This document shows positions 34,327 through 47,536 of a stretch of DNA of 54,039 bases, in pieces. Below the pieces are notes generated by a model. That model was given only the letters and a program-made list of their open reading frames with translations. It was not told where the DNA came from and ran no database searches. The DNA lies in contig JAJBAY010000004.1 in assembly GCA_020532515.1 (NCBI GenBank), positions 1 through 54,039 on the forward strand. The letters run 5' to 3'. Both the position numbers and the translations under genes were made by a program. Within the stretch, counting starts at the first letter, position 1, and each line of letters begins with the position of its first letter. Origin of the DNA: Candidatus Cloacimonadota bacterium (lineage in GTDB: Bacteria; Cloacimonadota; Cloacimonadia; Cloacimonadales; Cloacimonadaceae).

Positions 34327-34537
34327 GGGGCGGTTACTTTTCACTTTGGCTCATATATTGCATAATAATATAAGCACAGGCGCAGAACTCCCTGCACAAA
34401 ACAGAAGCTGCTCTTTTTAATGGAATTGAATGCGAATATTTTATACGTCTAAATAGATATTTAAAACTTAAGCCATCGCTTTTTGGCGATTGGAACCAAT
34501 GACATTAAGACAAGCCAGACCGATAGGAGTGTCTGCC

Positions 34538-37500
34538 ATGAAAAAGATTATGCTGTATGCCCTGCTCCTGGCCTTAGCCTTGGGAGCTATCTCAAAGCTC
34601 GGTGCCCAAGTAACTGTGACTATTGGTGAAGGTAGTTCTACAAACCTTTCGACCCAGTCGCCCACCCCTTATGGGACCTATGATAAAAACTTCCGCCAGC
34701 AATATTTGTACCACGCCAACGAAATCCAGGATGCGGGTGGTGGCTCTGGAAATATCAATTCACTTGCTTTCGAGGTAGAGGGCCTCTACACTTGTCCTCC
34801 GATGACGAGCTTCAAGCTGCGCCTCAAACACACGGACCAGACAGAACTGAATCCGGATTTTGAAGCAGGCGACTATCAGGAGGTATTCCTAAGGAACCAC
34901 TACATCCCAGCTCCCGGCTGGAATGTCCACACTTTCAGCACGCCCTTTGTGTGGAATGGCAACCAGAATATCCTCGTGGAGGTGGTGACCGATCTCAGCA
35001 CCGAAAACTATGCTCACAATGCCTCTGTGTACTATACTGCTACCACATATAACAGTGCATTGCGCTTTGGTGACGACCTTATCCCCGCGCTCCAGGCCAG
35101 CTCTGGTGTTGTGTCCCCGAACCGCGCCAATATCCGCTTTAATATGGCCGAATTCCCCCTTACTGCCCCTCCTTATGCTGCACAGCTCATATCCCCTCCT
35201 GATGGAGCCACGCTGCTGAGGCCCACCACTTCTTTTTCGTGGATATCAGGAGGAGGTGCCACCGTGGGCTACAAGCTGAATTTTGGCACAAACAATCCGC
35301 CCAGCAATATCGAATACATGCTGGATCTGGCAGACGCTAGCAGCTATACTCCCCCTTCTGGCCTGGCCTTTGATACTACTTATTACTGGCAGATCGTTCC
35401 TTACAATAGCGTAGGCAATAGCGCAAACTGTCCGGTATGGAGTTTTAGCACTCATGGCGATACCACTATCTACGAATTGCCTTATACCCAGAATTGGGAT
35501 GCGGTCACAGTGCCTGAACTGCCCTTTGGTTGGACTGCGCTTGCAAGTACTACATCTGCCTGGGCTACGGTAGAGACTACAGATTCCTTCTCATATAGCC
35601 CCCCTAATTGTGTGAGAATATTCAAAGGCACCAATACCTTCGATCAACTGCTTTTGGTCTCTCCAAAAATCAGCCCTCTGATTCCCATGAATTCTATCAG
35701 GATAAAAGCTCGGATCAAAAATGCCTACTCCCTGCAGGTGGGAGTGATCACAAACCCGGCTGATCTTTCGAGCTTTGAACCAGTTAAGACCATTTTCAGA
35801 AGCGGCTCAGAATTCGCAGAATGCGAGATTCCGCTGAGAACTTATACCGGTGCAGGACGCCATATTGCTTTCCGGCATTCCGGAGATAATCCTAACCGAA
35901 GGTACTATATAGATGATCTCATCCTGGAAGAAATCGCAGAGCACGATCTGGCTGCCACAGCCATCCGGGGGAACTTTACGCCCAGTGTAAATGCGACCAC
36001 ATATTGCAGTGTGGATATCCTGAATTATGGAGCCGCTGCCCAGAATAGCTACACTGTAAAGCTAGTTGACAGCGAAGGCCTGGAGCTTGGCTCTGCGGCC
36101 GGACCTACGATACCAGCCGGAGAAACTATCACAGTAAGCATTCCCTGGACTCCCACCCAAGAGGGTGAAATGAGCATTTATGCCAAAGTAATTCTGGCCT
36201 CAGACATGAATACTCTCAACGATGAAACGCCCCCGCAAAGTGTATCTGTAAGGCCGGAAGGTACATACAGCGTCACTATAGGAGACGGAGATCAAACTCA
36301 ACTCGTGCCTTGGAATTTCAATGCCTATTACAGTCTATTCCAGTGCCTGTATCTTCAGGATGAGATTGGCACCTCGGGCAAGATTACGGCTTTAAGTTTT
36401 TACAATAACTTCCATGATGCCGTAATGGATACTCCGATCAAGATCTGGCTGCGCAGCACTATCGTACAAGACCTTTCCTCAGGCTTGCTGGATCCCCACA
36501 GCCTGACCCTGGTATATGATGGCACCGTGGATTTTCCGGCTGGAGAGAATACTATTACCATTCCGCTGCAGGTTCCATATAGCTATGCAGGTTACAATCT
36601 GGTGCTATACACCAATCGTCCCTTGGATACGAATAGATACACTAATCTCAATCGCTTTAAAGCCCAGACTGTGGGAACAAACCGTGCCCGTTATTCGATA
36701 TCTTCAGACTTCAATTATGATCCCATGGCTCCCTCTGGCCATGGAATGCTGGGCGGCATCTTCCCCAAAATCACTCTCATCATGGAGCCCCTGGCTGATG
36801 AAGCTACTTATGTAGTCACACCAGCCGCGCACAATTTTGGTGATGTGTCTGTATCTGAGACTGCGCAGCAGGATATCACCATCTCCAATGCCGGCGGGGC
36901 AGCTCTGGGCATCAATAATATTTCCATTTCAGGAAACCCGGCTTTTACTTTGACTGGCCTCCCGGCTCTGCCGGCAAGTATCAATACCGGAGGAAGCCTG
37001 GCTTTTGGCGTGAACTACAGCCCTGGCAGCGCGGGAGTGCACAGTGCTCAAATCTTGATTACCGATAATCTGAGCCGCGAACTGCATAGGATAAACGTGC
37101 AAGGCATTGGATACGACGCCACTATCTATAGCTTGCCATTTACGCAAAACTGGGATACCGCGACTGTGCCGGATCTCCCGCTGGGCTGGTCTGCTATGAG
37201 ACTTAGTAATGAAGCATCGTACACCTCAATAAATACCAGCACAGAAAGCCCTTACAGCGCGCCAAACTGTATGAAGATGTGGTATAGCCATAATGTCACT
37301 GAACAATTGTATCTTATTTCACCGCTTATTGACGACGCCATCGACATCAGCAAGATCCGCATAAGGGCCATGATGAAAGACTGGGGAGCTCTCAGGACGC
37401 AGATCGGAACTATGGTGGACCCCACAAATCCCCATAGCTTTGAGCTGGCTGGAACCTTTACTATAGTAGGGGATTGGACTTATGGCAATTGGTCTGAATA

Positions 37501-39901
37501 TATTGTGTCTCTTACCCACCACACCGGAGTGGGACGATACATTGCTTTCCGGCCAGATCCTACGGTCAGCGGTTTCTCTATGTGCATGGATGACCTTGTC
37601 TTTGAAGAGATTGTGCCAAACGATCTGGCGGCGATTTCCCTGAGGGGAAGCACGACCTGCCCCCTTGGCCTTGCGACAGATTATACGGTAAGAATATTCA
37701 ACAATGGCTATAGCACCCAATCTAACTATCAGGTTCAGCTTGTGAATGCTCAGGGCAATGTCCTGGCCGTCACAGCCAGAGAAAATATCGCTGCCGGTGA
37801 AACTGCAGATGTCATCCTGAGCTATATCCCCAACACTACTGGCTTTGGTGAAATAATGGGCAAAGTGGTCCTGGCAGGAGATAGTAATAGCGTGAATAAC
37901 AAGACTCCGCCCTTGGGCATCCTGGTCCCGCCAGTAAACATGTTCTCTGTCACCATTGGAGATGGAGACGAGTATCTGCACGCTCCCTGGGATTTTTCTA
38001 ATAAAAACAGCCTGTTTCAGGCTTTGTACTACCGTAGTGACATCGGCAGTTTTGGTAAGATCGTCGGTATATCTTTTTACAACAGCTTTGAGGCTGAGAT
38101 ACCCGATACCCCCATCCAGCTCTGGCTGGGCAACAGCTATCTATCTGATCTCAGTGCCGGCTGGATAGACCCCACTACTTTGACCAAGGTCTATGATGGC
38201 ATGATGCACTTTCCTGCCGGGGAAAACACTATCACCATCCCCCTCAGTAGGCCCTACAACTATGTTACCGGCAATCTGGTGCTCTACGCACATCGCCCCA
38301 TGGACAAAAGGTATTACCGTCCTGAGTACAATTTTCAGGGCCAGACTGGGAGCGCAAACTGCGCCCGTAGGATCTCTCGGGACTATGACGCATTCAATCC
38401 GATGCAGCCACCGATCTATGAGACAGAGCTGTCCGGCAGCCTCCCCAAAACTACCTTTCTTATCACTTCCAATGACCTGGGATCACTCTCCGGGCTTGTA
38501 ACTGCTTCAGGCAGTCCGCTGCCCGATGTGGAGCTCAATATAGACTATGCCGCCGGCCTCCAGACTGTTAGCTCTGCTTCTGGGGAATACTGCTTTCCTT
38601 TCCTGCTGCAGGGAGATTACACCCTCTTCGCACATAAGGCGGGATATGAAGATCAGTCTATAGCTTTCACTATTGTAGAAAGACAAAACACCCCCCTTGA
38701 TCTGCAAATGATAGCATCTATTCCAGTAAGCGTAAGCGGAACCATCCTGGGCAGCGACAACCCTGCAACAGGCCTGGCTGAGGCCACGGTAACTATACAT
38801 GGTATAATAAATTACACTGCAAGCACCAATGCCGCAGGGCAGTTTGTAGTAGAAAATATTCCTTCCGGTAATAGCTATGATTATACCATCAGTAAAGCCG
38901 GATATCAGAGAGAAACCGGAACTATCACGGTGGGCTCTACTAATCTCGATTTGGGCACCATCATTTTATTGGAAGACGCTTACCTCCCGCGCAACGTGGT
39001 GGCAGAGATGAATAATATGTACACCGCTGTTCTACTGCAATGGGAAGCTCCTGATGCACTTAGCAGTGCGCACCTGGCTTTGAGAGCCAGGAATATGCCT
39101 GCTGCGGCCCAGCCCAATAGCTGTGCTGGCAGAGCCCTGGTGGGATACGAGATCTACCGTATCGCCTCCGGTCAGGAAGATAATGAGGCCAGTTGGACCC
39201 TGCTCAATGAAAATCCGATCAACACTCTTGCCTATGAAGACCATGACTGGTTTGATACTATCGGCGGCATCTGCCGTTGGGGTGTAAAGGCGATATACAC
39301 CGGCGGTGTCAGCTCTCCCGCCGCTTTGTCCAACCTTCTGGTAGGTCCCTCTACCGGCAAGATCGTCGGCTTTGTTTATGATGAAGAAGGTCAGGGAATC
39401 TCAGGTGCCACCGTAACTACTGGTTATTATAGTTCTAACACGAGTTCCACCGGTGCTTATGCTCTGGAGCTGCTCATGGGAGTTTACTCTGTTACCGCCT
39501 GGGCAAATGGCTATTACGGCGTCACCGTCGACAACGTAGAGGTTTTCCCATTGCATGAGACCAGCTTAAACTTCACTCTCAGTATAGAGTGGGTTGCCAA
39601 CCAGAACGAAGTGAACCTTGTGACAGCTACTGCGCTGAAAGGCAACAATCCCAACCCCTTCAATCCTAGCACCACCATCCACTACGATATTCTGGAGCCC
39701 TGCAATGTGCGCCTGGATATCTATAATATCAAAGGTCAGAAGGTGCGCAGCCTGCTGAATGAAGCAAAGAGCAGTGGAAGCCACAGCATCGTCTTTGATG
39801 CTCGTGACGAGAGTGGTAGAGCCCTGAGCAGCGGCGTATATTTCTACCGCTTTACCGCCGGTAAATACACTGCTACACGCAAGATGCTGCTCATGGAATA
39901 G
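34538..39901 (+). CDS. Large secreted multidomain protein with sorting domain
   Basis: The 1787-residue protein has a signal peptide (1-23, ending LGA). A unit of about 440 residues occurs twice (about 312-750 and 865-1309): a cleaved-adhesin-like domain opening PYTQNWD/PFTQNWD, a CARDB-like domain opening HDLAATAIRG/NDLAAISLRG, and a domain opening SVTIGDGD. An ASPM/Hydin-type Ig domain lies between them (about 762-862, HNFGDVSVSE). Three carboxypeptidase-regulatory-like domains follow (about 1315-1390, 1398-1475, 1607-1685), with an FN3-like stretch before the third. A FlgD-like sorting domain ends the protein (about 1698-1787, NPNPFNPSTTIHYDI). AGGAG (34525-34529) is 8 nt before ATG 34538. 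It is probably a surface adhesin or scaffold. Confidence 0.88.
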   Translation: MKKIMLYALLLALALGAISKLGAQVTVTIGEGSSTNLSTQSPTPYGTYDKNFRQQYLYHANEIQDAGGGSGNINSLAFEVEGLYTCPPMTSFKLRLKHTDQTELNPDFEAGDYQEVFLRNHYIPAPGWNVHTFSTPFVWNGNQNILVEVVTDLSTENYAHNASVYYTATTYNSALRFGDDLIPALQASSGVVSPNRANIRFNMAEFPLTAPPYAAQLISPPDGATLLRPTTSFSWISGGGATVGYKLNFGTNNPPSNIEYMLDLADASSYTPPSGLAFDTTYYWQIVPYNSVGNSANCPVWSFSTHGDTTIYELPYTQNWDAVTVPELPFGWTALASTTSAWATVETTDSFSYSPPNCVRIFKGTNTFDQLLLVSPKISPLIPMNSIRIKARIKNAYSLQVGVITNPADLSSFEPVKTIFRSGSEFAECEIPLRTYTGAGRHIAFRHSGDNPNRRYYIDDLILEEIAEHDLAATAIRGNFTPSVNATTYCSVDILNYGAAAQNSYTVKLVDSEGLELGSAAGPTIPAGETITVSIPWTPTQEGEMSIYAKVILASDMNTLNDETPPQSVSVRPEGTYSVTIGDGDQTQLVPWNFNAYYSLFQCLYLQDEIGTSGKITALSFYNNFHDAVMDTPIKIWLRSTIVQDLSSGLLDPHSLTLVYDGTVDFPAGENTITIPLQVPYSYAGYNLVLYTNRPLDTNRYTNLNRFKAQTVGTNRARYSISSDFNYDPMAPSGHGMLGGIFPKITLIMEPLADEATYVVTPAAHNFGDVSVSETAQQDITISNAGGAALGINNISISGNPAFTLTGLPALPASINTGGSLAFGVNYSPGSAGVHSAQILITDNLSRELHRINVQGIGYDATIYSLPFTQNWDTATVPDLPLGWSAMRLSNEASYTSINTSTESPYSAPNCMKMWYSHNVTEQLYLISPLIDDAIDISKIRIRAMMKDWGALRTQIGTMVDPTNPHSFELAGTFTIVGDWTYGNWSEYIVSLTHHTGVGRYIAFRPDPTVSGFSMCMDDLVFEEIVPNDLAAISLRGSTTCPLGLATDYTVRIFNNGYSTQSNYQVQLVNAQGNVLAVTARENIAAGETADVILSYIPNTTGFGEIMGKVVLAGDSNSVNNKTPPLGILVPPVNMFSVTIGDGDEYLHAPWDFSNKNSLFQALYYRSDIGSFGKIVGISFYNSFEAEIPDTPIQLWLGNSYLSDLSAGWIDPTTLTKVYDGMMHFPAGENTITIPLSRPYNYVTGNLVLYAHRPMDKRYYRPEYNFQGQTGSANCARRISRDYDAFNPMQPPIYETELSGSLPKTTFLITSNDLGSLSGLVTASGSPLPDVELNIDYAAGLQTVSSASGEYCFPFLLQGDYTLFAHKAGYEDQSIAFTIVERQNTPLDLQMIASIPVSVSGTILGSDNPATGLAEATVTIHGIINYTASTNAAGQFVVENIPSGNSYDYTISKAGYQRETGTITVGSTNLDLGTIILLEDAYLPRNVVAEMNNMYTAVLLQWEAPDALSSAHLALRARNMPAAAQPNSCAGRALVGYEIYRIASGQEDNEASWTLLNENPINTLAYEDHDWFDTIGGICRWGVKAIYTGGVSSPAALSNLLVGPSTGKIVGFVYDEEGQGISGATVTTGYYSSNTSSTGAYALELLMGVYSVTAWANGYYGVTVDNVEVFPLHETSLNFTLSIEWVANQNEVNLVTATALKGNNPNPFNPSTTIHYDILEPCNVRLDIYNIKGQKVRSLLNEAKSSGSHSIVFDARDESGRALSSGVYFYRFTAGKYTATRKMLLME

Positions 39902-39996: not shown

Positions 39997-40125
39997 AGAG
40001 GCAGTTGTCACCTGCTGGGCTATTGGCATTCGCCTGGCGTCCTACCGGACTGGTTTGATTCATAGTATTGGAAGCTCAAAACAAGCACCCTGATTGGCTG
40101 TTCAGATTCCCCTCGCCCATGCGAT

Positions 40126-40188
40126 GTCGTGGAGATGACGTGGAGATAGCAGGAAAAAATCCTCTTATCTCCACATCATCTTCACCAC
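40126..40188. repeat. Long hairpin with 29-bp arms
   Basis: Arms 40126-40154 and 40160-40188 are complementary at 24 of 29 positions, or 26 counting two G-U pairs, around an AAAAA loop. The left arm itself contains two copies of GTGGAGAT. No T-run follows, so it is not a standard terminator. It lies 225 nt after the large secreted protein gene. Confidence 0.8.
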
Positions 40189-40476
40189 AGGCTATGCAGG
40201 AAGAGCACTATGCTTCAAGCTTCTGGGCAGGCTGAAAAAAGCAAAAAGATTGGCTGATAAGCAAGAAAAGCTGCAGGCCGGCAACCAGCAACAGCCCTTC
40301 CCCCAAAGTATCCATATATCATAGTTATAATAGTTATGAAGATAGCCTGTTAGCTCTCATTCATGTCATAAAGGCTTATAATTTCGGTTCAATACCTTAT
40401 CAAAATGAGTCCTGTAGAAATGATATATTAGATAGCAAACGAATGTAAAACAAGGGATTGAGCCCAGTAAAGATGA

Positions 40477-41131
40477 TATTTTGGAGAGCAACCTGGATCA
40501 GTTCATAATCAGACTTTAGCAAAAAATGGGGAACTGCCTACTCACAGCGTGACCCTGAGTTCTTTCTATCTGGGTAAATATCAGGTGACACAAGCGGAAT
40601 ATCTGGCGGTTATGGGCTTCAATCCAGCCTACGCTTATGGAGTTGGGGATAATTATCCAGTTTACTACGTGACCTGGTCTTCAGCCCTGAAATACTGCAA
40701 TCTGCGTAGTATGAATGAGGGTTTGACGCCTGTTTACAGTATCAGCGGCTCTACCAATCCCGCTGACTGGGGAGCGACAAATGATCCTGATTTCTTGTAT
40801 AGCGGTTCAGATGATCTGAGTGCTGTGGGCTGGCATACTGGAAATAATACCCCCCTATGGCTCAAAACCAGTTGGAACTAAAGAGCCGAATGCCCTCGGT
40901 CTTTACGACCTGAGCGGGAATGTATGGGAATGGTGTTGGAATTGGTTTGACCAATACAGCAGCAGTCCCAGCAACAATCCTACATGCCCCAATAGCGGCT
41001 CGGTCTGTATGCTTCGGGGCGGAAGCTGGAACAATGACGTCTATTACTGCCGGATTGCGTATCGAACCAGCAACACGCCGTCAAGCAGATTATTCTACTT
41101 CGGCTTCCGGCTCTGCAGGTCAGGTTTGTAG
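40477..41131 (+). pseudogene. Decayed FGE-sulfatase (SUMF1) domain gene
   Basis: Two reading frames together cover most of a formylglycine-generating-enzyme-like (SUMF1, C-type-lectin fold) domain. Frame one reads PTHSVTLSSFYLGKYQVTQA ... YSGSDDLSAVGWHTGNN. Frame two reads KPVGTKEPNALGLYDLSGNV ... GGSWNNDVYYCRIAYRT ... GFRLCRSGL. Three lesions are visible. The N-terminal part before the first motif is missing. The usual GYRLPTEAEWEYAARG segment is absent between NPADWGA and TNDPDF. A run of six C (40850-40855) shifts the frame, and five C would restore it. The last third has the spread of NNC/NNT codons seen in variable regions of diversity-generating retroelements. A sequencing error could explain the C run but not the other two losses. 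Confidence 0.8.
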
Positions 41132-41150
41132 TCTTTTATCAGATGCTATC

Positions 41151-41245
41151 GTAGTGCAAGACGCTGTTCCTGCTGAAGAATAATCGTATAAATACCGATT
41201 TGTTTTAAAAATCATGGTTCCGCAGAAGCGGCGTCCTGCTCTAGA
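41151..41245. repeat. Imperfect inverted-repeat element (MITE-like), copy 2
   Basis: Bases 41151-41212 match 34207-34268 with five transitions. The end (41216-41245, GGTTCCGCAGAAGCGGCGTC...) is an imperfect reverse complement of the start. It begins 20 nt after the FGE remnant. The middle is shorter than in copy 1. Confidence 0.8.
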
Positions 41246-41282
41246 GCAGTTTATGCTTGACAAATAGAGGCTTTACAGCCAA

Positions 41283-41858
41283 ATGCACCTTGTGAAAAAA
41301 GTCAGACTTTTTACCTGCGAAATCAAACGACACCGACAGATAGCCCCTGAGCTATGTGCAGTATGTCCGCGTGTGGCAAAATGCAAGGCATTCAGGGTCT
41401 GGCACCAAACTCACCATCAGGAATATCTGGATTTTGTACTGGATATTATCAATAGATTCCCCGAAAAATATCAAATGGAGGTTCAGTTCATGAACGAGAA
41501 ACAACACTTCGTACAAATTGTGGACATGGAAACTGGCAAGATTGAGCGCATTGCGAACTTAAAAGAAATCGATGCCATGAGCCCGGAAGAAAAGCTGGCG
41601 CTCTCCAAGAACAAAAGTCTCTTTGTGGTAACCCATCGCCTGCAGCCCATTGTGAAAGTGACTCTAAAGAGATCGGTGATTACCAAGCCCATGCAATTTG
41701 GAGTAGTCCCGGAAGAGCTGCCGGAGCCGGAGCCCACGCCCACACCCGCACCCAAGGCCAAAGAAAAGAAAGCGGAACCAAAGGCTGCACCCAAGGCTAA
41801 GGAAACTAAACCGGAGCCGGAGCCAGCGCCGAAGAGCAAGCCCCGGAAAAAGGCTTAA
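41283..41858 (+). CDS. Hypothetical protein with Cys cluster and Pro/Ala/Lys tail
   Basis: The 191-residue protein starts with a basic part holding four Cys (12, 26, 29, 34: LCAVCPRVAKC), perhaps a metal site. A middle domain follows (about 67-142), then a low-complexity tail of EPTPTPAPKAKEKK-type repeats (about 143-191). I do not recognise a family. The start is uncertain: 41283 has only AGAGG 12 nt upstream, and a TTGACA at 41257-41262 would place a transcript start inside the gene. A second candidate is ATG 41490 with GGAG 9 nt upstream. It shares the Cys-motif style with the next small gene. Confidence 0.65.
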   Translation: MHLVKKVRLFTCEIKRHRQIAPELCAVCPRVAKCKAFRVWHQTHHQEYLDFVLDIINRFPEKYQMEVQFMNEKQHFVQIVDMETGKIERIANLKEIDAMSPEEKLALSKNKSLFVVTHRLQPIVKVTLKRSVITKPMQFGVVPEELPEPEPTPTPAPKAKEKKAEPKAAPKAKETKPEPEPAPKSKPRKKA

Positions 41859-41995
41859 GGGTCAATAAACGCAAGCCCCCTAAAAAAAAGCTTTTACAAA
41901 ATTGCGCTATCTAGAATACTGGCACATAGTAAAAGATTGCACGCCCAAGACAGCTTGTAAGGCAGAAAATGCTCTGCCCAAAAAAGGAGAAATGT

Positions 41996-42361
41996 ATGTT
42001 TAATTTAGATGAAAAACATTTGGAAGCAGCTAAGAAAATAGCTCTGGAAAATCGCAAGAAAAAACGTTGTGACGAATGTTATGACCGCGGTTGGATAGGC
42101 GTATCCGAGCAAAATCTGCTGGTGCTGTGCACCCGTTGTGTGGATATGGATGCCGCCATGGAAGACTGGAAGAAATATGTGGGCGAACATGAAGAGCTGA
42201 AAGAGCACTTTGCTGAGCTCTTTGAAGAAGCGCCCGAAGAAGCGGTGGAAGGCGAAGAGCACCCCGCTCAACAGGAATATGAACACAAAAAGTCCCACCC
42301 AGTGGGAAAAATGGCCTATGTACCCGGCCCCAAACGAACAGGAAGAGCAAAGAAGATCTAA
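41996..42361 (+). CDS. Small zinc-ribbon-like protein
   Basis: The 121-residue protein has two CxxC pairs, Cys25/Cys28 (RCDECYDRGW) and Cys45/Cys48 (LCTRCVD), spaced as in a zinc ribbon, then an acidic helix rich in Glu and a basic C-terminus (GPKRTGRAKKI). AGGAG (41985-41989) is 6 nt before ATG 41996. An in-frame start at 41969 has no site, and the ATG at 41992 is out of frame. ileS starts 8 nt after the stop, so the two are probably co-transcribed. A nucleic-acid- or ribosome-linked role is a guess from the ribbon and basic tail. Confidence 0.75.
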   Translation: MFNLDEKHLEAAKKIALENRKKKRCDECYDRGWIGVSEQNLLVLCTRCVDMDAAMEDWKKYVGEHEELKEHFAELFEEAPEEAVEGEEHPAQQEYEHKKSHPVGKMAYVPGPKRTGRAKKI

Positions 42362-42369
42362 ATAAAGCT

Positions 42370-45300
42370 ATGTATAAAACTACCGATCCAAAAGAAAATC
42401 CTCGGGATTTCGAGGCCCGCATCCGTGCATATTGGGAAAAGCACGCCTTAGCCCAAAAAAGCGTCGATTTCAGGGAAGGAAATCCGCAATTTATATTTTA
42501 CGAAGGCCCGCCCACGGCAAACGGCAAGCCCGGTATTCACCATGTACTGGCTCGCACCTTGAAAGATACAGTCTGCCGCTACAAGACCATGACCGGTTTT
42601 CAGGTAAAACGCAAAGCCGGCTGGGATACCCACGGACTTCCTGTGGAGATCGAAGTGGAAAAAGCTCTCGGTCTGGAAGACAAGCGCGGTATCGAAGAAT
42701 ATGGCGTGGAAGAATTTTGTGCCAAATGCCGGGCTTCAGTATTTTCTTATGAAAAGCTCTGGCGTGAAATGACCGAGCTCATGGCCTATTGGATCGATCT
42801 GGACAATCCCTATATCACTTTGGACAATGACTATATAGAAAGCGTTTGGTGGATTTTAAACGACTTTTTCCAGCGCGATCTGATCTATAAAGCGCATAAG
42901 ATCGTGCCTTATTGCCCCTCTTGCGGCACACCTCTTTCTTCCCACGAAGTGGCTCAAGGCTATCGTGATGTGGAAGACCCCTCCGTCTATGTGCGTTTCA
43001 AAGCCTTGGGCGAGGAGAATACCTGGTATCTGGCCTGGACCACTACGCCCTGGACTTTGATCTCCAATGTGGCGCTGGCGGTGCATCCAGATAAGACTTA
43101 TGTGAAAGTACTGCATCACGGGCAGAATCTCATCCTGGCCAAAGCGCGTCTGGAGGTTCTGGACGGCGACTATGAGATCCTCGCCGAAATGAAAGGCTCC
43201 GCTCTGGAGCGCCGCTCTTATGAGCCGCTCTTTAGCTATGTGCCAGTGGATAAACCGGCCTGGTTCATCGGCCTCGCAGATTATGTATCCATGAGTGATG
43301 GCACAGGGATCGTGCACACAGCTCCGGCTTTTGGCGCTGATGACTACAGTCTGGGCACGAAATACGATCTGCCTTTTGTCAATCCGGTGGATGCAGAGGG
43401 GAAATTCGAAGCAGCGGTTACCCCTTGGGCCGGCATCTTCGTAAAAACTGCGGATAAAGAGATTATTCGCCACCTGAAAGACAGCGGCAAGCTCTATCGC
43501 CGCGAGCAGATCAAGCACAATTATCCTTTCTGCTGGCGTTGCAGCAGCCCCCTGATCTATTATGCCCGCGAGAGCTGGTATATCCGCACCACGCAGTTCA
43601 AAGACCAACTGATCGAGAACAACAAAAAGATAGATTGGTATCCCTCCTTTGTGGGAGAAAAACGCTTTGGCGAATGGCTGGAAAACAACGTGGATTGGGC
43701 GCTTTCCCGCGACCGCTTTTGGGGAACTCCGCTCAATATCTGGGTCTGTGAAGACTGCGGACACAAGAGCTCAGTAGGCTCTCGTGCCGAACTGGCCCAA
43801 AAAGGCAAAATGGAATCCGGCGCAGCAGTGAGTGAAGATATCGAGCTGCACAGACCTTATATCGATGAAGTAAAGCTGGCTTGTGAGAAATGCGGATCTG
43901 TAATGCATCGCACCCCGGAAGTGATTGACTGCTGGTTTGATAGCGGAGCCATGCCCTTTGCGCAGTGGCACTATCCTTTTGAAAATAAAGAGCGCTTTGA
44001 GACCGAGCTGTTCCCGGCGGATTTTATCTCGGAAGGGATAGATCAGACCCGGGGCTGGTTTTACAGCATGCTCACCATCTCCACCCTCTTTAAGGGGGTA
44101 TCTTCCTACAAAAGCTGTCTGGTAAACGACATGGTTTTGGATAAAAAGGGTCAAAAGATGAGCAAAACCAAGGGTAACAGCGTGGATCCCATCGAGCTAA
44201 TGCACGATTATGGCGCCGATGCCATCCGCTGGTATCTTCTGGAAGTGAGCCCGCCTTGGGTACCCACCCGCTTTGACGTGGACGGTGTGCGCGAGACCAT
44301 CAGCAAGTTCATTGGAACCCTGAAAAACGTTTATGCCTTTTACGCAACCTATGCGAATATAGATAATTTTGATGCCGGTAGCTATCCCACAGACTGGGAA
44401 AGAGATGCCGAGATCGATCGTTGGATCATCTCACGTCTGCAGAGCCTCATCAAAGATGTACGCGAATATACTGAGATCTACGAATTTACCCGCAGTGTAC
44501 GGGCTATCCAGGACTTTGTGATCGATGAACTCTCAAATTGGTATGTACGCCGCAGTCGCCGCAGATTCTGGTCTTTTGAACTGAGTGAAGACAAGATCCA
44601 GGCCTATCGCACCTTGTATATGGTGCTGCTTGAGATCAGTAAACTCATTGCCCCCTTTGTGCCCTATCTGGCTGAAGAGCTTTTCCAAAACCTCAAAGGT
44701 GGGGAAAGCGTGCATCTGGCGGATTACCCGGTGAGTGAAGCGCAGTACATAGATGCAGAGCTTCAGCGTGATATGCAGGCTGTGATCGACGTGGTATCGT
44801 TGGGACGCACAGCCCGGGGCGAGAGTAATCTCAAGATTCGCCAGCCTTTGGGCGTGATGTATGTGCCGGGCAAATTGCGCGAGTCTTTGGACAAGATGCT
44901 CGATTTGATCAAGGAAGAAGTGAATATCCAGCAGATCAGGTATGTAGAAACAGACAGCGACTTTGTGCAGTATGAGCTGAAACCAGATTTTAAGGTGATG
45001 GGCCCCAAGTATGGCAAGCAGATGAAGGCTATCGCAGCCTATTTGCAGAAGGCAGATTCCGCTCAGGCTCTGCGTGATTTTGCCGCAAAAGGCTCTTTTG
45101 AATTTGATTTAAATGGCGAGCACGTCACCCTCTTGCCGGAAGACTTGCAGGTGCAGATTCTCCCGCGGGAAGGCTATGTCTTTGCCAGCATGAAAGATAT
45201 ATTTATCGCTCTGGATACTGAGCTCAATGAAGAGCTGATCCTGGAAGGTTATGCCCGCGAACTGATCAATAAGATCCAGTTTTCCCGTAAGGAGCAAGGC

Positions 45301-45495
45301 TTTGAGATCATGGACCACATCAGTATTTCCTACTGTGGGGATGAGCAGATCGATAAAGCCATTGCCAATCACAAAGACTATATCATGAGCGAGACTTTGG
45401 CCGAGGAAATGGTAAAACAGGACGATCCCTGTCTGCCTCAGATAGATATTAACGGCAAAGAGATCGGCTTGAAGGTGACCAAGAATCATGCCTAA
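42370..45495 (+). CDS. ileS: Isoleucyl-tRNA synthetase, IleRS2 type with GxHH motif
   Basis: The 1041-residue enzyme charges tRNA(Ile). In the HIGH position the sequence is PGIHHV, i.e. Gly55-Ile-His57-His58 (bases 42532-42543): the first and third residues of HIGH are exchanged. KMSKT is at 596-600. An editing domain (WTTTPWTL near 222; GTGIVHTAPAFGADD), Cys pairs in CPSCG, CWRC and CEDCG/CEKCG, and a long C-terminal region with a late I-rich domain give the eukaryote-like IleRS2 layout. IleRS2 enzymes generally resist mupirocin. No T-box leader is seen. The frame overlaps a possible upstream start of the next gene. Confidence 0.96.
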   Translation: MYKTTDPKENPRDFEARIRAYWEKHALAQKSVDFREGNPQFIFYEGPPTANGKPGIHHVLARTLKDTVCRYKTMTGFQVKRKAGWDTHGLPVEIEVEKALGLEDKRGIEEYGVEEFCAKCRASVFSYEKLWREMTELMAYWIDLDNPYITLDNDYIESVWWILNDFFQRDLIYKAHKIVPYCPSCGTPLSSHEVAQGYRDVEDPSVYVRFKALGEENTWYLAWTTTPWTLISNVALAVHPDKTYVKVLHHGQNLILAKARLEVLDGDYEILAEMKGSALERRSYEPLFSYVPVDKPAWFIGLADYVSMSDGTGIVHTAPAFGADDYSLGTKYDLPFVNPVDAEGKFEAAVTPWAGIFVKTADKEIIRHLKDSGKLYRREQIKHNYPFCWRCSSPLIYYARESWYIRTTQFKDQLIENNKKIDWYPSFVGEKRFGEWLENNVDWALSRDRFWGTPLNIWVCEDCGHKSSVGSRAELAQKGKMESGAAVSEDIELHRPYIDEVKLACEKCGSVMHRTPEVIDCWFDSGAMPFAQWHYPFENKERFETELFPADFISEGIDQTRGWFYSMLTISTLFKGVSSYKSCLVNDMVLDKKGQKMSKTKGNSVDPIELMHDYGADAIRWYLLEVSPPWVPTRFDVDGVRETISKFIGTLKNVYAFYATYANIDNFDAGSYPTDWERDAEIDRWIISRLQSLIKDVREYTEIYEFTRSVRAIQDFVIDELSNWYVRRSRRRFWSFELSEDKIQAYRTLYMVLLEISKLIAPFVPYLAEELFQNLKGGESVHLADYPVSEAQYIDAELQRDMQAVIDVVSLGRTARGESNLKIRQPLGVMYVPGKLRESLDKMLDLIKEEVNIQQIRYVETDSDFVQYELKPDFKVMGPKYGKQMKAIAAYLQKADSAQALRDFAAKGSFEFDLNGEHVTLLPEDLQVQILPREGYVFASMKDIFIALDTELNEELILEGYARELINKIQFSRKEQGFEIMDHISISYCGDEQIDKAIANHKDYIMSETLAEEMVKQDDPCLPQIDINGKEIGLKVTKNHA

Positions 45496-45514
45496 GAACC
45501 CGGAGGCTACCACG

Positions 45515-47536
45515 ATGCAGTACTGCTTGAATTGTGGGGAAAAGATCCCCGAAAAGGCGAAATTCTGTCCTTTTTGCGGAGAGAATGTGGTGTTGGATGA
45601 ACTGCACAAGCCAGCAGTAGAAAAGGAAGCTGCCCAGGAAATTAAGCCGAAAGCAGAGGCCCCGGTCTCCAGCCCGGAAACTGACAAAAACATCACCTTG
45701 CTGAATCCCGGTGATAGCTTTGAGGGCTACAAGATCCTACGCATGATGAATAAAGACAAGGAAGGCATCAAGTACATAGCCGAGAAAAACGGCAAAGAAC
45801 ATGTACTCAAGATCTTCTTCAAATCCAGCTTCCACAATATGGACAGCCTCTTTGGCATCCAGATGAGGCTGAACAGACTGAACCATATCCAAGATGCCCA
45901 CATCGCCAAAGTGACCGAGGTAAATCAAAGCCACTCCCCGGCTTTCATGGCTGTGGAATATGTGCATGGGGTTTCTCTGGCTGAAATCAAGCAATACAAT
46001 CCCGAACGTCTAACTGAAGAGCTGGTGAGGGAAATTGCCAAAAAACTGATTAAAACTGTGATGCAGGTACGCAAACATGGCCTCAGCATCTCAGATCTGC
46101 AGCTCAGCAGCATCATGATAAAAGACAATTCAGAGCCCGTAATCCTTTCCAGTGGCATTGGCTACAATGAAGAGGATGAGCGGGAGGATATATTTATTAT
46201 AGGCACCGTCATCGCACAGCTACTTGCCACCAACCCTCTGTACCGGAATATATATAACCCGGATCGCCTTAGACTCAATAAATTTACGAAGATAGTAGGC
46301 GTGACCATGGCTCTGAATAAAATCCTGGCCGAAAGCCTGCATCGCAATGTCTCGCAGCGCTTTGGGAGCTTGGATAAATTCTATACGGCAATCGACAAAC
46401 TGGGCCCTGTGGAGGGTGCGGAAATATGCACCGTGCAAGATACCAGCTTCCTGGATCCCGATAAAAAGCAAGAAGATATCATGCCCAAATCCAGAATCGA
46501 GATTGGTTTCTGGATTCTGATCGGCGTGGTGGTAGTGCTGATGATCCTGCTTTTTACCACAAACATCTATAAGGTAATCTTTGGTGCAGATGAAGATAAG
46601 CTGCAATTCACCGGATTTGTCTGGGGAAAAGACTCTGTAGAAGACAGCCTCGCCCAGCGCATCGAAGATGCCCAGGGGACAGTAAACAGCTCGGAACCGG
46701 TTTTGACTACCTATGGTCAATTAAAGGGCAGCACGCTGGACGAGAGACAGGATCCCAGACGTCTGCCCGCTGTGCCCCAAAGCAAAGACGCCAGCTCTGC
46801 ACCGGTGATCAAGCCATCACAACCGGGAAGGAACTTCGTAAGAATCGAGCCTTCCACTTTTGGTTTTGGCAGATTGGGCGAAAACCTGGCGCATAACGTA
46901 TCTATATCTGCATTTTACATCAGCAAATACGAGGTGACCCAAGGCGAGTGGAGCCGTTTTATGAAGCCTGCCAATGCCACCAATTTTGGAGAAGATCTTC
47001 CTGTGGATAATGTGAGTTGGTTCGACATCGCCATATACTGCAATGGGCTCAGTGAAGCGGAGGGACTTACTCCCGCCTATCGCATCCGGGGGCTGGGTGC
47101 TTCCCGGGTGGTGAGTTGCGATTTTAACGTCAATGGTTACCGTTTGCCCACCGAAGCCGAATGGGAAGTGGCTGCAAAAGCCGGGAAGCTATATAATTAC
47201 AGTGGTTCAAATGACCCTGCCGATGTCGCCTGGTATCGGGATAACTCCGCCGGCAAATTGCGTAAACCAGGTGGCAAAAGCCCCAACGATTTTGGCATCT
47301 ATGATATGAGCGGAAACGTCTCAGAATGGGTCTGGGACTGGCTGGATGCAAACTACCCAAATTCTTTGACCACATTTATCAACCCCACCGGACCGGAGAC
47401 CGGAACTCAAAAGACCATCCGCGGCGGCAATGTGATGAACAGCGAAGGCCGCAATCTGAATATTCTCTGGCGCGAGCGGGGTGACCCTAATAAGGGATAT
47501 CAATTCGTGGGGTTCAGGCTGGCAAGAAGTAAGTAA
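45515..47536 (+). CDS. Zinc-ribbon / pseudokinase / transmembrane / FGE-sulfatase fusion protein
   Basis: The 673-residue protein has four parts. A double-CxxC zinc ribbon (Cys4, 7, 18, 21: YCLNCGEK, FCPFCGEN) comes first. A Ser/Thr-kinase-like domain spans about 65-300. A transmembrane helix (about 331-350) and a FGE-sulfatase/SUMF1 domain (about 435-673: YISKYEVTQGEW, NGYRLPTEAEWEVAA, YDMSGNVSEWVWDW, GFRLARSK) follow. The kinase part keeps the beta-3 Lys (Lys99, HVLKIFF) and the catalytic-loop Asp194, but HRDLKxxN reads ISDLQLSS and DFG reads SSG, so it is a pseudokinase. I chose ATG 45515 with GGAGG 8 nt upstream; ATG 45488 lies inside ileS. The kinase part would be cytoplasmic and the FGE part external. 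Confidence 0.9.
   Translation: MQYCLNCGEKIPEKAKFCPFCGENVVLDELHKPAVEKEAAQEIKPKAEAPVSSPETDKNITLLNPGDSFEGYKILRMMNKDKEGIKYIAEKNGKEHVLKIFFKSSFHNMDSLFGIQMRLNRLNHIQDAHIAKVTEVNQSHSPAFMAVEYVHGVSLAEIKQYNPERLTEELVREIAKKLIKTVMQVRKHGLSISDLQLSSIMIKDNSEPVILSSGIGYNEEDEREDIFIIGTVIAQLLATNPLYRNIYNPDRLRLNKFTKIVGVTMALNKILAESLHRNVSQRFGSLDKFYTAIDKLGPVEGAEICTVQDTSFLDPDKKQEDIMPKSRIEIGFWILIGVVVVLMILLFTTNIYKVIFGADEDKLQFTGFVWGKDSVEDSLAQRIEDAQGTVNSSEPVLTTYGQLKGSTLDERQDPRRLPAVPQSKDASSAPVIKPSQPGRNFVRIEPSTFGFGRLGENLAHNVSISAFYISKYEVTQGEWSRFMKPANATNFGEDLPVDNVSWFDIAIYCNGLSEAEGLTPAYRIRGLGASRVVSCDFNVNGYRLPTEAEWEVAAKAGKLYNYSGSNDPADVAWYRDNSAGKLRKPGGKSPNDFGIYDMSGNVSEWVWDWLDANYPNSLTTFINPTGPETGTQKTIRGGNVMNSEGRNLNILWRERGDPNKGYQFVGFRLARSK

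Follow-up and report, generated by a model that had tools for sequence, protein, structure and literature searches.

The window analysed here, a stretch of 54,039 nucleotides from a Candidatus Cloacimonadota genome, carries a gene for isoleucyl-tRNA synthetase (IleRS) whose class I signature motif reads Gly-Ile-His-His; this raises the question of what type of enzyme it encodes, how that enzyme would respond to mupirocin, and whether the motif was inherited or acquired. The gene, ileS, extends on the + strand from its ATG start codon at 42370 to the end of its stop codon at 45495, and encodes 1041 residues without internal stops. Bases 42532-42543 on the same strand, GGTATTCACCAT, read in frame as GGT ATT CAC CAT, i.e. 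Gly55-Ile-His-His58. These four residues occupy the class I signature position and align unambiguously with the HVGH motif of wild-type Priestia megaterium IleRS2 (PmIleRS2; PDB 8c8u/8c8v type), and likewise with the ...LPGVHHALG... segment of the engineered GVHH mutant (8c8w). The initial annotation had read GIHH here in place of His-x-Gly-His, and this is confirmed in both position and register, with an intact reading frame and agreement among the aligned full-length relatives. The ValRS (LHMGH), LeuRS (LHIGH), and MetRS (LHVGH) of the same genome carry canonical motifs; among the class I synthetases checked there, the swap is specific to IleRS.

The type of the enzyme is indicated by profile scores, domain content, and phylogeny. 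The TIGR00392 (ileS) profile scores 959.8 bits against a cut-off of 621.4. In phmmer comparisons with PDB chains, sorted into the IleRS types to which we take them to belong from PMC10485003 and general knowledge, P. megaterium IleRS2 variants score 1094-1107 bits over residues 5-1014 and the Thermus thermophilus IleRS 926 bits; the longer cytoplasmic-type set follows with 615-723 bits, and the IleRS1-like set (P. megaterium IleRS1, 8c9e/8c9f, and 1ffy) with 279-370 bits, P. megaterium IleRS1 itself scoring 361-370 bits. Domain matches on the + strand place the tRNA-synt_1 catalytic and CP1 region (PF00133) at 42427-44247, the Anticodon_1 domain (PF08264) at 44416-44856, and the DUF5915 domain (PF19302), an IleRS2-type C-terminal region, at 44902-45483. 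The last is also found in two other IleRS2 proteins and is absent from E. coli IleRS1, the C-terminus of which has a zf-FPG_IleRS zinc finger (PF06827) that the window enzyme lacks. Alignment further locates the KMSKS loop at residues 596-600 (44155-44169, +), here in the form KMSKT, which some close relatives share, and two motifs of the editing domain, by comparison with the editing sites of IleRS enzymes generally: WTTTPWTL at residues 223-230 (43036-43059, +) and HTAPAFGADDY at residues 316-326. Judged by score, C-terminal domain, and tree, the window enzyme is an intact IleRS2; the layout proposed from the sequence alone is borne out, and the suggested phylogenetic check places the enzyme with IleRS2, not IleRS1.

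For such enzymes, the consequences of the swap have been described in detail (Brkic et al., 2023; PMC10485003). The G/AXHH motif occurs in 86 of 379 prokaryotic IleRS sequences, all of them IleRS2, with Ile, Val, Leu, Met, or Tyr named at the X position; it forms two clades with two or more origins, and environmental antibiotics are proposed as the selection behind it. The IleRS2 of Deinococcus radiodurans (DrIleRS2), which has ALHH, shows a mupirocin Ki of 6.6 mM, which drops 823-fold when ALHH is changed to HVGH. The canonical HVGH enzymes have a Ki of about 1 µM in P. megaterium IleRS2 and 0.2 µM in T. thermophilus IleRS; introducing GVHH yields 460 µM and 35 µM, respectively, with effects of at most about ten-fold on kcat or KM. 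Motif swaps shift the Ki about 200- to 823-fold in enzymes that are still active, whereas IleRS1 does not tolerate GXHH and loses its activity (PMC10485003). The literature to which the initial annotation had referred on extreme mupirocin resistance in GxHH IleRS2 exists and says as much; the lead is correct but not new, as both the motif and its hyper-resistance are already published. The main text of PMC10485003 makes no mention of Cloacimonadota, and a literature search naming both Cloacimonadota and mupirocin returned only unrelated work.

By analogy with these published enzymes, His57, in the third position of the motif, would most likely replace the missing first histidine in the transition state of isoleucyl-adenylate formation, and its sidechain would clash with bound mupirocin, so that the Ki would approach high micromolar to millimolar values. 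Mupirocin hyper-resistance of the window enzyme is on this analogy probable, with a predicted Ki between about 30 µM and several mM; because the T. thermophilus enzyme with GVHH reaches only 35 µM, the motif alone is no guarantee of a millimolar value.

The genome is a MAG of 2.33 Mb in 150 contigs, 93% complete and 4% contaminated, and its closest named relatives are Candidatus Cloacimonadota MAGs that are at most 82% identical. Searches with the protein and with TIGR00392 return one IleRS over the family cut-off, the remaining matches being ValRS, LeuRS, MetRS, and more distant class I synthetases; each of seven other IleRS2 genomes also has one IleRS. That the gene is the only copy, and hence the housekeeping one, is supported on the scale of the genome: no second ileS was found by these searches in the MAG, whose 93% completeness and 4% contamination leave room for one. 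Upstream of ileS, at a distance of about 8 bases, lies an ORF of 130 residues, preceded by one of 191 residues, and both are kept in many related loci. The ORF at 45488-47536 overlaps the end of ileS and combines zinc-ribbon, protein-kinase-like, and FGE-sulfatase domains in one protein, which close relatives also have after ileS. An Rfam scan of 40000-46000 gave no T-box or other RNA element at gathering thresholds. Elsewhere in the window, 34490-39901 encodes a protein of 1803 residues with carboxypeptidase-regulatory repeats and HYDIN/ASH-like Ig domains, which ends in a Por_Secre_tail C-terminus, a type IX-like secretion signal.

The swap is the standard state of Cloacimonadota. A degenerate DNA pattern that allows either GxHH or HxGH gives 105 matches in 104 of 125 Cloacimonadota genomes, all of them GIHH and none HxGH; in most other genomes without a match, the N-terminus of IleRS is missing or fragmentary. 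One genome of the same family as the window (G047) has a complete ileS that escapes the pattern and reads GTHH; its Thr falls outside the set of residues named for the X position in PMC10485003. The motif is equally uniform in the sampled Ignavibacteria-type and Bacteroidota genomes, with GIHH in 36 of 36 matches from the class around a Stygiobacter genome, and GIHH or GVHH in all 71 from the wider phylum around it (Ignavibacteria, Bacteroidota-type). To control for bias of the pattern, an almost identical one was applied to the phylum around Caldicoprobacter, which contains the Clostridia; it yields 10 GxHH and 51 HxGH matches, counted by eye and with IleRS1-type sequences included in the 51. 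No intermediates of the form HxHH or GxGH were seen, by eye, among the matches of the four pattern searches. Two contig-edge IleRS fragments (L159, G075:C79, and L160, G055:C21), 42% and 46% identical to the window enzyme, sit in Cloacimonadota MAGs that have an ileS of their own, and represent either contamination or a second IleRS; in a further Cloacimonadota MAG (L161, G002:C248:1000-4500), ileS is split over several frames, probably by assembly frameshifts.

In a maximum-likelihood tree of 24 IleRS2 proteins, calculated with the four motif columns removed, all GxHH sequences fall on one side of a single branch with a support of 98/99. This side comprises Cloacimonadota, with the window enzyme among them, Tissierellia/Peptoniphilus-type Firmicutes, Zixibacteria, Ignavibacteria, and Bacteroidales; a single change of the motif is retained in 96% of the bootstrap trees, and a tree of 63 rows agrees. 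Since the window motif lies on one deep GxHH branch, it is therefore inherited, and nothing suggests a recent acquisition. The clade is probably the published GXHH subclade inside the major clade. When the Rhodococcus opacus enzyme (GTHH) is added, a second motif change is needed; a separate origin there, in line with the two or more origins published, is likely but not firm, Rhodococcus being the only independent GxHH row and its long branch meeting that of the E. coli outgroup. This IleRS2 (L208) is borne on a 691-kb linear plasmid (NZ_CP095404.2, 3357-6512), downstream of genes whose annotation names condensation-domain and phosphopantetheine-binding proteins of NRPS type, and could be a self-resistance copy for a natural product that targets IleRS. 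Within the Cloacimonadota, the tree of 63 rows also contains the ileS of a MAG titled Armatimonadota (L017), which points to a mislabelled or misbinned contig.

Taken jointly, these observations make it very probable that the window encodes the sole, housekeeping IleRS2 of a Cloacimonadota bacterium in the published GXHH form, in which His57 would take over catalysis and obstruct mupirocin, with vertical inheritance of the motif within the phylum. That the GIHH reading might stem from a sequencing or assembly error, or from a decayed gene, is an idea to which the genome's being a MAG lends its only support; it is refuted by 104 independently assembled genomes that show the same motif and by a full ORF without stops, and its probability is negligible. 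A recently acquired, mobile mupirocin-resistance gene of the MupA/MupB kind would be suggested by the high raw scores with the corresponding NCBIfam models (1016.5 and 1021.3 bits), but these fall well short of 1900, the curated cut-off of both models, and stem from the IleRS2 ancestry that the proteins have in common; with a single ileS that nests vertically among those of the Cloacimonadota, next to upstream neighbors that are conserved in many loci of the phylum, this origin is refuted as well, and we consider it extremely improbable.

The alternative with real weight, which we place somewhat short of an even chance, accepts a working motif and questions its connection to mupirocin: the swap would be a neutral, ancient rearrangement of the active site, kept by descent, with resistance as a by-product. 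Its uniformity across whole sampled groups and its position on one deep branch are as expected for an old and (nearly) neutral change, and no context of mupirocin-like biosynthesis or resistance was seen beside the gene, where the neighbors are conserved small ORFs and the kinase/FGE protein. Against this, PMC10485003 names environmental antibiotics as the selecting agent and demonstrates that the motif directly affects the Ki, and the apparently separate origin in R. opacus hints at recurrent selection. The neutral account bears on the origin of the motif and leaves its effect on mupirocin binding untouched.

A second difference lies before the KMSKS loop, where the residues aligned with Gly581-His582 of PmIleRS2 are Asp587-Met588 (44128-44133, +); in IleRS1, the residue corresponding to His582 is the Phe that contacts mupirocin (PMC10485003). 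In a comparison of 44 GxHH with 18 canonical IleRS2 sequences, from which the Bacteroidales and Rhodococcus enzymes are set apart, position 587 is Asp or Glu in every GxHH sequence (44/44) and Gly in every canonical one (18/18), and the position aligned with His582 is Leu or Met in the former and His or Leu in the latter. An acidic residue as an obligatory partner of GxHH is rejected, because Gly is retained both in the GxHH enzymes of Bacteroidales (Asn-Gly-Leu or Thr-Gly-Leu) and in that of Rhodococcus (Leu-Gly-His); the acid is a trait of the clade that the swap can do without. With the swap mapping to a single branch, its co-occurrence with Asp/Glu587 is not separable from common descent. 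The main text of PMC10485003 was not found to describe an acidic residue at this position. The changes from Gly to Asp/Glu and from the His582 position to Leu/Met accompany the swap in Cloacimonadota, Ignavibacteria-type bacteria, Zixibacteria, and Tissierellia/Peptoniphilus-type Firmicutes; a pairing of this acid with His57 that adjusts the adenine pocket, and with it a second version of the swapped site unlike that of the characterized enzymes, is conceivable but rather unlikely.

These considerations extend the published distribution of GXHH to an uncultured phylum, where the swap occurs throughout and is no isolated oddity; in several groups, the only IleRS seems to have a rearranged class I signature motif. 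A GXHH motif in metagenomic data from such groups would then be an inherited taxonomic trait that predicts intrinsic insensitivity to mupirocin, not an acquired resistance gene.

Among known systems, the closest are the G/AXHH IleRS2 enzymes of Deinococcus radiodurans (ALHH) and Streptomyces griseus (PMC10485003), which have the same first and third motif positions swapped and are likewise housekeeping. The window enzyme, with Gly in the first and His in the third and fourth positions, groups with GXHH IleRS2; it differs in coming from Cloacimonadota and in having Asp587-Met588 where PmIleRS2 and the Rhodococcus GxHH enzyme have Gly-His. The canonical IleRS2 of P. megaterium (8c8u/8c8v/8c9d) and T. 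thermophilus (1ile) share its domain layout over a long alignment, but have HVGH in place of GIHH. Staphylococcal MupA and MupB also belong to the IleRS2 family, and MupA is about 45% identical to the window enzyme; they are, however, plasmid-borne copies, whereas the window gene is the only ileS found in its genome. IleRS1 (E. coli IleS, S. aureus IleRS1) has the class I IleRS catalytic core in common with it, but combines a HIGH motif with, in E. coli, the zf-FPG_IleRS C-terminus, where the window enzyme has GIHH and PF19302.
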